Assembly (NCBI GenBank): GCA_014804675.1
Contig: JAAUZH010000005.1
Span: 6,887-70,886 of the forward strand
Origin: Lachnospiraceae bacterium
GTDB taxonomy: Bacteria; Bacillota; Clostridia; Lachnospirales; Lachnospiraceae
Direction of reading: 5' to 3'
DNA length: 64,000 bases
The first letter of the stretch is position 1. Every line of letters starts with the position of its first letter. Of this stretch, positions 1 through 53,506 are shown piece by piece. The position numbers and the translations under genes were made by a program. Below the pieces are notes generated by a model. It did no database searches and had not been told where the DNA came from. It saw nothing but the letters and a program-made list of their open reading frames with translations.

Positions 1-316
1 ATTGATCTCTTTTATCCTCTGGAAAATACCTGCTTTCTTTCATCCTAAGAAAAAATCCTGCATCCAATTTACACATTTCTTCTGCAAACAACTCCTGTAA
101 CAATTCAATCCTTTGCTTCCTTCTTTGGTTCCGTCTTCTTGAGCTTCTAAATATCCTCCTTTCTTCTGCGGTCTTTGCCATTTCAAATAAACGCACTCCC
201 CACAAAGCCTTTCCATTTGCCTTGCACAACTGATAGTCCTTGTCTGTAACCGCCCATCCAACTGACCCTGTTCCAATATCTACTCCCAAATAGTATCCTT
301 TTTGCTCTTTTCCCAT
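1..316 (-). CDS. cas9: CRISPR-associated endonuclease Cas9, N-terminal part (runs off left edge)
   Basis: RNA-guided DNA endonuclease of type II CRISPR-Cas; only the first 105 residues lie in the window. Reading from the ATG at 316, which has a strong AGGAGG site 6-7 bases upstream, residues 11-23 read GVDIGTGSVGWAV, the RuvC-I motif, with D13 in the catalytic aspartate position. An arginine-rich bridge helix follows (about residues 53-72, core RRIFRSSRRRNQRRKQR) with the usual LLQELF continuation. The nuclease lobes, HNH domain and PAM-interacting domain lie outside, so subtype is not decidable from protein alone. The divergent tracrRNA candidate at 415-528 fits a type II locus. The protein is not a closed reading frame here because it has no stop inside the window. 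Confidence 0.93.
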   Translation of the reverse strand, partial: MGKEQKGYYLGVDIGTGSVGWAVTDKDYQLCKANGKALWGVRLFEMAKTAEERRIFRSSRRRNQRRKQRIELLQELFAEEMCKLDAGFFLRMKESRYFPEDKRDQ

Positions 317-379
317 AGTTTTCCTCCTGATTCTTTTTATTGTATTTATCTCATTAGTTTTATTGGCTTTGATTATTTC

Positions 380-408
380 TTGACATTTTAATATTTATTA
401 TTTATAAT
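380..408 (+). promoter_or_regulatory. Consensus sigma-A promoter of the tracrRNA candidate
   Basis: TTGACA at 380-385 and TATAAT at 403-408 are separated by exactly 17 bases, a perfect vegetative promoter. It points away from cas9 into a stretch with no open reading frame that ends at a strong terminator, as expected for a small RNA gene. The predicted first transcribed base is near 415. Confidence 0.88.
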
Positions 409-414
409 GTTATC

Positions 415-528
415 ATAAATATGAATACCATACATATTTACATCATAAGTTCAAATAAAAATTTATTCAAACCGTCATACCAATGGCTCCACAGTGTGTG
501 GATTAAAACTCGCTTAGGCGAGTTTTTT
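415..528 (+). ncRNA. Candidate tracrRNA, divergent from cas9
   Basis: A non-coding transcription unit of about 110 bases lies between a consensus promoter and an intrinsic terminator, directly upstream of and divergent from cas9. In order: a 5' segment (about 420-452) in the position of an anti-repeat; an A/T stem AATAAA/TTTATT at 454-467 followed by CAAACCG, resembling the nexus region of Firmicutes type II tracrRNAs; a hairpin TCCACA/TGTGGA at 488-502; and the terminator hairpin at 506-525. The reverse complement of the 5' segment should resemble the CRISPR repeat of this locus, but no array is in the window to prove it. The call rests on position, architecture and the nexus-like motif. Confidence 0.8.
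506..528 (+). terminator. Intrinsic terminator of the tracrRNA candidate
   Basis: Perfect 8-bp stem AAACTCGC/GCGAGTTT with loop TTAG (514-517), running into six T residues at 523-528. Confidence 0.9.
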
Positions 529-555
529 AATATTATTATCTAATGTTTATAAATT

Positions 556-618
556 CCCCTTTATATTTAAACATTTATTTGCCTTCTGGTAAGTTTTGCA
601 TTTTGAATATACAAATTA
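556..618 (-). pseudogene. Decayed 5' fragment of a second ArsC/Spx-like gene
   Basis: The minus strand here aligns base by base with the first ~65 bases of the intact gene that starts at 989. The stretch around CCAGAAGGCAAA is identical, and the region of the CxxC motif is recognisable but mutated. It has a stop codon and no open frame. It lies 20 bases past the stop of the intact gene, so it looks like the remnant of a tandem duplication that kept only the start. Confidence 0.7.
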
Positions 619-638: not shown

Positions 639-989
639 TTATTCCACCTTCTCCTCCCACTCACTCTCCTTAAACCCAACCAAAACAATCTCATCTCCCA
701 CCAGAATCGGCCGCTTCACCAGCATCCCATCCGAAGCCAGAATTTGAAACTGCTCCTCCTCCGACATTCCGGAAAGCTTGTCCTTCAGCCCCATCTCCTT
801 ATACAAAGCTCCGCTTGTATTAAAAAACTTCTTTAATGGCAGCCCGCTCTTTTTATGCCACTCCTTTAACTCGGCAGCATCTGGATTCTGCACCTTTATA
901 TCCCTGTCCTCATATGAGATTCCCTTTTCATTCAACCATTTTTTTGCCTTCTGGCAGGTGCTGCATTTTGGATATTCTACAAATAACAT
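639..989 (-). CDS. ArsC/Spx-family thioredoxin-fold protein
   Basis: A 116-residue protein of the ArsC/Spx family. The N-terminus reads MLFVEYPKCSTCQKAKKWL, a beta-strand and CSTC motif typical of glutaredoxin-like arsenate reductase relatives, and the C-terminal half has the conserved RPILV segment (KRPILVGDEIVLVGF). Length matches the family (110-130). The start at 989 is chosen because GGAGGAG lies just upstream; a longer upstream reading lacks such a site. The CxxC pair could be redox active. True arsenate reductase, Spx-type RNA polymerase-binding regulator and uncharacterised YffB-like protein cannot be separated here, and no other arsenic gene is nearby. Confidence 0.85.
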   Translation of the reverse strand: MLFVEYPKCSTCQKAKKWLNEKGISYEDRDIKVQNPDAAELKEWHKKSGLPLKKFFNTSGALYKEMGLKDKLSGMSEEEQFQILASDGMLVKRPILVGDEIVLVGFKESEWEEKVE

Positions 990-1302: not shown

Positions 1303-1562
1303 CTAATCCTCATAATGCCCTTTACATGATGCTATAATAACTGCTCCATCTTTTTCTTTATAGACAATTCGATTTACTTCATCAATTCTCCTACTCCACC
1401 AGCCGCTCATATTATTTTTAAGGGTTCCGGTTTTCCGATACCTTCATAGCAATCCCTTTGTATATCCTTAATGAGCATATTAATTCTTTTTAAAGTCTTC
1501 TTATCCTGTGTCTGCCATTCAAGGTACTCTTCCCAAGCTCGTTCATCCCAAAGTATCTTCAT
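1303..1562 (-). pseudogene. yoeB: YoeB/Txe-family mRNA interferase toxin, frameshifted
   Basis: The translation from the ATG at 1562 begins MKILWDERAWEEYLEWQ and reaches GIGKPEPLK, then hits a stop. In the next frame it continues NNMSGWWSRRIDEVNRIVY and ends IIASCKGHYED, the hallmark C-terminal half of YoeB, including the WSRRI segment and terminal HY. The break is in an A run on the minus strand (1415-1419): five As are present and six would restore one frame of 86-87 residues. YoeB cleaves mRNA at the ribosome A site. The gene follows its antitoxin directly. It is either an inactivated toxin, a sequencing error in a homopolymer, or a slippage site. Confidence 0.85.
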
Positions 1563-1565
1563 GCA

Positions 1566-1826
1566 CTAACCCCCAATCAGTTCGTGCTCCGTAAGTACAG
1601 CTTTCCCAGATTCAATATCCCCTATCACCTTATCCAAATGTGCCATATTACTTTCAGAATAAAATGGATCTATAGATACCTCAAACGGAATTCTTTTTTC
1701 TCTTGTCATTTTTTTCGCAAATATTGTAAATGCAGTTGTCATGCTCAATCCTAAATCTTTGCATGTTTCTTCCATATTTTTCTTTAGCTCTTCATCCATA
1801 CGAAAATTAATCATTGCTTGTGCCAT
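1566..1826 (-). CDS. RelB/DinJ-family antitoxin
   Basis: An 86-residue antitoxin. It starts MAQAMINFRMDEELKKNMEE, a ribbon-helix-helix DNA-binding N-terminus, followed by LGLSMTTAFTIFAKKMTREKRIPFEV, the typical RelB/DinJ helix and linker; the C-terminal ~30 residues should wrap the toxin. The start at 1826 is preceded by GGGAGTGGTG. The stop lies 3 bases before the toxin start, so the two genes are cotranscribed and probably autorepressed through the RHH domain. The toxin is frameshifted, so this may now be an orphan antitoxin. Confidence 0.88.
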   Translation of the reverse strand: MAQAMINFRMDEELKKNMEETCKDLGLSMTTAFTIFAKKMTREKRIPFEVSIDPFYSESNMAHLDKVIGDIESGKAVLTEHELIGG

Positions 1827-1948
1827 AATCACCACTCCCTTTCTGTAATTTAATTCTATCATGCCCTAAATTCTCTGTAAAGCATTTGTTATGATTTTGC
1901 TTTACAACATTATTATATTCAATGATTATGTATTTATCAAAACTTATC

Positions 1949-53279: not shown

Positions 53280-53506
53280 GCAAAAGAGGGATGTGGGCGG
53301 ATTCCATGCATTGTTTTTGAGCGGGATTTTCCTTAACAGTCTGCTCTCTACCCAGGGTAAAATTGCCATGGACGGCAATTTTAGGCATATTGCGCCACGG
53401 ACGGCGCTATATGCCGCCCCGAACGGTACCAACACCTTAAATCAGACTGTTTAGGAAAATCCCGCTCAAAAACACCGCATGGAATCCGCCCACATCCCTC
53501 TTTTGC
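53280..53506. repeat. Foldback element C with 64-bp arms and a two-hairpin core
   Basis: Arms 53280-53343 and 53443-53506 are reverse complements with 3 differences. The 99-base core has two hairpins in tandem: AAAATTGCC/GGCAATTTT with loop ATGGAC (53359-53382), and GGCATAT..GCGCC/GGCGC..ATATGCC with loop ACGGAC (53384-53415), then a CGAACGG. The core is unrelated to A and B. Confidence 0.85.

Follow-up and report, generated by a model that had tools for sequence, protein, structure and literature searches.

In S. pyogenes SF370, the tracrRNA gene of the type II-A CRISPR–Cas9 locus lies upstream of cas9 and is divergent from it. For the FrCas9 locus, small-RNA sequencing shows that the tracrRNA and the cas genes are transcribed in opposite directions, with the crRNA following the cas genes (PMC8931148). 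Across Cas9 orthologs, the position and orientation of the tracrRNA vary greatly (PMC7606464), and in some II-A systems a long form, tracr-L, exists. On the array side, a II-A leader–repeat hairpin (Liao et al. 2022, as described in PMC13187072) is reported to block tracrRNA at the first repeat, which stops useless crRNA and favours the crRNA of the newest spacer.

The locus described here belongs to this already known kind. The window, that is, the whole 64-kb stretch of DNA analysed (G000:C5:6887-70886), lies on contig 5 of a 43-contig, 3.44-Mb assembly. Its edge cuts through cas9, and the remainder of the locus lies upstream on the same contig; those parts are given in L002 numbering, which counts the contig from its first base and is converted to window positions by subtracting 6886. 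Cas9, cas1, cas2 and csn2, each scoring above its curated NCBIfam cut-off, run in one direction together with the array, and the tracrRNA gene leaves the cas9 start in the opposite direction. The cas genes are as follows.

L002:3144-7202, minus strand: cas9, 1352 aa (TIGR01865)
L002:2272-3087, minus strand: cas1 (TIGR03639, 293 bits)
L002:1962-2312, minus strand: cas2 (TIGR01573, 73.5 bits)
L002:1291-1965, minus strand: csn2 (TIGR01866, 169 bits; cutoff 35)

The presence of csn2 makes the locus type II-A. Cas1, cas2, csn2, cas9 and the array sit together as in the II-A locus of Faecalibaculum rodentium FrCas9, which comes from a different species and for which the PAM NNTA has been established, and a divergent tracrRNA beside cas9 is a normal II-A layout. 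Taken as a whole, the best explanation, which we regard as almost certain, is a complete type II-A CRISPR–Cas9 locus in a Lachnospiraceae-like bacterium, with the RNA pathway proposed below. The named Cas9 proteins closest to it are mostly from Lachnospiraceae, and relatives of both the repeat and Cas9 fall largely within the genome's own family. Five members of the genus were sampled and none yielded a cas9; the distribution of the locus is therefore patchy. A comparison with congeners did not reveal an empty site: the spx-like flank was conserved, but the G003 contig stops 437 nt past this flank, and its end has no match in G000.

Past the tracrRNA terminator, a 63-nt stretch (window 548-610) shares 78% identity with the first part of the Spx/ArsC-like neighbour (window 913-975) and looks like what is left of a gene next to the CRISPR locus. 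Farther on, a RelB/DinJ-family antitoxin lies within window 1304-1862; the adjoining positions 1304-1561, where its partner would be expected, carry stop codons in the frame tried, and our guess is a decayed toxin gene. A TwoAYGGAY RNA motif (Rfam RF01731, 105 bits) occurs at window 53310-53476.

The features at the window edge are listed below in window positions; all RNA features are predicted.

2-316, minus strand: 5′ end of cas9 with RuvC-I and the bridge helix; the reading frame is open, without a stop, and continues past the window
322-327, minus strand: AGGAGG-like ribosome-binding site of cas9, 5 nt ahead of the ATG, read from the sequence
380-408, plus strand: tracrRNA promoter TTGACA-17-TATAAT, 12 of 12 consensus positions, sigma-A
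415-528, plus strand: tracrRNA gene, its start predicted from the promoter and its end from the terminator
416-440, plus strand: 5′ hairpin with arms TAAATATG (416-423) and CATATTTA (433-440), the 3′ arm inside the anti-repeat
421-457, plus strand: anti-repeat, pairing with GTTTGAGAATGATGTAAAAATGTATGGTACTCAAAC of the array at -32.5 kcal/mol
455-474, plus strand: nexus-like stem AAUAA...UUAUU and the linker after it (MFE fold)
474-487 and 488-502, plus strand: two 3′ hairpins (MFE fold; equivalents in relatives judged by eye)
505-526, plus strand: rho-independent terminator AAAACTCGC-TTAG-GCGAGTTTT with a T run, 0.1 expected in the region

An earlier note, made from the window's letters, had read a Cas9 start with RuvC-I and a bridge helix at its edge, and this reading is borne out: the frame at 2-316 matches TIGR01865 at 134 bits over model positions 1-89, with the RuvC-I motif DIGTGSVGWAV followed by the Arg-rich bridge helix at the N-terminus. 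The whole cas9 scores 828 bits and covers positions 1-1069 of 1070, and the catalytic motifs DIGTGSVGW, FIEMARE, the HNH H (HIYP) and HHAKDAYL are intact as read. Just outside the window, the middle of cas9 (L002:4324-6886) contains 104 single ambiguous bases, 80 of them at third codon positions, which look like two mixed alleles in the assembly and make the 1352-aa sequence provisional. One cas9 locus was found in the genome, and no second. The nearest solved Cas9 is PDB 9jwk (1372 aa, 872 bits), which we take to be FrCas9. The C-terminal (PAM-interacting) region of the Cas9 encoded here has no sequence match to SpCas9.

The array lies 5.7 kb past the window edge on the same contig and holds 18 full repeats and one cut by the contig end (thus at least 18), with spacers of 29-30 nt; repeats of about 36 nt, spacers of about 30 nt and adjoining cas genes are those of a type II-A array. 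At the contig end (L002:1-132), the two spacers farthest from the leader are identical, for which a duplication or an assembly effect are candidate explanations. The leader has a TTGACA-18-TATAAT promoter and ends with ATTTGAG against repeat 1. Both halves of repeat 1 find pairing partners in its predicted RNA (64 nt), at 29.4 expected pairs versus 3.9 when the leader is shuffled (none of 1000 shuffles as good), and such pairing recurs in seven of 13 other loci, where no more than 3 of 200 shuffles do as well. As in the hairpin of Liao et al. 2022, leader RNA and repeat 1 are thus expected to pair here, and blocking of tracrRNA is predicted; this known II-A feature appears to be present, and leader RNA folded onto repeat 1 would block useless crRNA and favour the newest spacer.

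That newest spacer (spacer 1, L002:1154-1183) matches G000:C9:232279-232308 at 30 of 30 bases. The matched site, whose 3′ flank is TAAAATCAAA, lies inside a phage DNA-methyltransferase gene adjoined by terminase, portal and minor head genes, which mark a resident prophage. A perfect match to a resident prophage implies either a target without a PAM or interference that is off or inhibited, and spacer 1 is a candidate for self-targeting, with an anti-CRISPR or a missing PAM as possible reasons. No protospacers were found in a phage collection, in a plasmid collection or by exact matching of the spacers against IMG/VR, which makes PAM inference impossible. Weak family-level array matches were considered as protospacers and rejected, none qualifying with 7 mismatches allowed.

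On the plus strand, the perfect promoter, the nexus-like stem and the terminator hairpin proposed in the earlier note were all recovered. The TTGACA-17-TATAAT promoter is the sole copy in the 64 kb, where 0.01 would be expected by chance, and in most close relatives a promoter matching 9-12 of 12 positions occupies the corresponding place. The 118-nt tracrRNA folds at -26.5 kcal/mol versus -13.2 kcal/mol in shuffles (z -4.7), and the MFE fold contains the stem at 455-474, which resembles a nexus by analogy. The core is conserved in an alignment of 14 loci and is near-invariant at this stem (AAGTTCAAATAA.AATTTATTC). The same note had expected the array repeat to pair with positions 420-452; it does so over the slightly longer stretch 421-457, and the refuting condition that the note had set for this pairing is not borne out. 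This duplex has the 3-nt bulge usual for II-A, and its -32.5 kcal/mol compares with -14.2 ± 2.7 kcal/mol for 500 shuffles (best -27.3) and with -23.7 kcal/mol at the next best repeat-pairing place in the window. When 14 tracrRNAs were crossed with 14 repeats, 13 of the 14, the window's included, paired best with their own repeat, with ties among L002, L049, L069 and L070, which share near-identical repeats.

An own promoter and terminator, a nexus-like stem and 3′ hairpins can thus be recognized, and the sequence supports a self-contained, divergent tracrRNA gene at about 415-528. Its module order (anti-repeat, bulge, nexus, hairpins, terminator) is that of S. pyogenes SF370, and its place upstream of cas9, opposed to the cas genes, as read from the sequence, is that of the FrCas9 tracrRNA, which is supported there by RNA sequencing. 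By the II-A pathway, the anti-repeat at 421-457 would anneal to every repeat of the array transcript, RNase III would cut the repeat:anti-repeat duplex, and the crRNA:tracrRNA pair would load Cas9 through the nexus and the 3′ hairpins.

One part of the locus may be new. At its predicted 5′ end the tracrRNA is complementary to the central part of its own anti-repeat, and the resulting 5′ hairpin, judged from the window alone, is weak (-3.5 kcal/mol; arm-shuffle p 0.02, dinucleotide-shuffle p 0.11). We assembled a set of 24 loci, the window's among them, with transcripts containing the upper anti-repeat; the unrelated tracrRNAs L089 and L090, both scored as non-members, were left out. Throughout this set a hairpin of 5-13 bp begins between +1 and +4, counted from the predicted start, and the 3′ arm stops 6-14 nt (mostly 10) ahead of the GTTCAAAT motif. 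The 24 loci have 24 different arm pairs, and own arms pair at a mean of -7.6 kcal/mol versus -2.9 kcal/mol when swapped, with 0 of 20,000 arm swaps as good, a figure that is not a strict probability as the loci are related. This permutation was used since the varying loop length rules out column-wise covariation in a MAFFT alignment of the 5′ ends. The hairpin is present too in seven hold-out loci (L105, L107, L108, L110, L112, L113 and L117), within which alone 5 of 20,000 arm swaps were as good, and most tracrRNAs that start inside the anti-repeat are without it.

In the seven loci with a known repeat, the upper anti-repeat departs from the exact complement of that repeat only where the hairpin gains. 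A single T-to-A in the window costs the crRNA duplex 3.7 kcal/mol and gains the hairpin 3.1 kcal/mol; in L021, L022, L052 and L074, one A-to-G leaves the energy of the crRNA duplex practically unchanged (G-U) and gives the hairpin a G-C pair. These comparisons make selection for the 5′ hairpin the simplest reading, and its existence is well supported by them.

The pairing could instead be a functionless relic of the palindromic repeat that gave rise to the anti-repeat, a reading suggested by the nearest clade, in which the arms and the outer anti-repeat overlap. We consider it unlikely, because reverting the upper anti-repeat to an exact complement of the repeat weakened the hairpin in all seven of these loci, the ACTCA and ATCTC types have their 5′ arm upstream of the anti-repeat, and the arms covary. 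The inverted repeat also sits exactly at +1 to about +27, where a DNA operator at the transcription start might lie, with no RNA hairpin involved; such an operator is improbable, as one binding protein would not recognize 24 arm sequences that all differ and enclose loops of 3 to 17 nt, and the sequence changes preserve RNA pairing.

For the selected RNA hairpin, we suggest the following role. The first ~25 nt of a fresh tracrRNA would fold and hide the middle of its own anti-repeat, which would protect the 5′ end against decay or mispairing. Left unpaired, the anti-repeat's 3′ half would remain available as a landing site, and crRNA pairing from there would open the hairpin, which is much weaker than the crRNA duplex and should therefore yield to it. 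Single-guide designs drop the hairpin segment and keep 16 nt of the repeat, which could explain why it has been passed over; in a search limited largely to openly accessible papers we found no description of a tracrRNA 5′ hairpin. The full proposal, which we hold to be about evenly balanced between right and wrong, is that in many II-A tracrRNAs the 5′ end forms a hairpin that is under selection and covaries, and that the central anti-repeat stays hidden in it until a crRNA, entering at the free 3′ half, unfolds it. Such a hairpin would be an overlooked module, probably missed as single-guide designs cut the segment off, that protects the free RNA and controls the meeting of crRNA and tracrRNA.

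The orientation of the tracrRNA gene differs among close relatives. Two Lachnospiraceae loci, L049 and L069, have a near-identical repeat, a Cas9 about 51-52% identical and the same tracrRNA core, but their cassette is inverted relative to the one here and points in the same direction as cas9; that of L050 is likewise turned round. In the Cas9 tree the nearest clade has both orientations, and well supported branches force at least two changes. Inversion need cost nothing to a cassette that carries both its promoter and its terminator, in keeping with the 'self-contained' tracrRNA gene of the earlier note.

The divergent genes share a short intergenic region, and tracr-L is known from some II-A systems, so that a long form might act here as a natural single guide repressing the cas promoter, as in S. 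pyogenes. To this we give only slight credence: positions 301-440 hold no repeated or inverted word of at least 9 nt to serve as guide and target, folds from upstream starts give the lower stem of the anti-repeat no repeat-like partner, and upstream there is no second good plus-strand promoter. An upstream extension with a guide matching the cas promoter was thus not found in 301-440, and unlike in S. pyogenes, no tracr-L-like natural single guide was found. That the plus-strand unit is no tracrRNA at all, and instead some other small RNA or a chance pairing of promoter and terminator, has next to no probability and is already contradicted, for although no Rfam family reached threshold in the tracrRNA region and its tracrRNA identity is read from sequence, 421-457 is the best repeat-pairing place in the 64 kb by 8.8 kcal/mol, most of the relatives examined keep the unit in the corresponding position, and the tracrRNA pairs best with its own array repeat.

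The locus offers a complete set of Cas9, crRNA and tracrRNA with the partner RNAs identified, so that its PAM and activity are directly assayable, and the genome, with a newest spacer that perfectly matches a resident prophage, is a candidate in which to look for anti-CRISPRs. Should the 5′ hairpin form in cells, it would be a tracrRNA module absent from the usual scheme of anti-repeat, nexus and hairpins, and the stability of free tracrRNA and its route to crRNA would become testable questions. If the proposal is true, the 5′ hairpin of the tracrRNA would mirror the leader hairpin on the array side.
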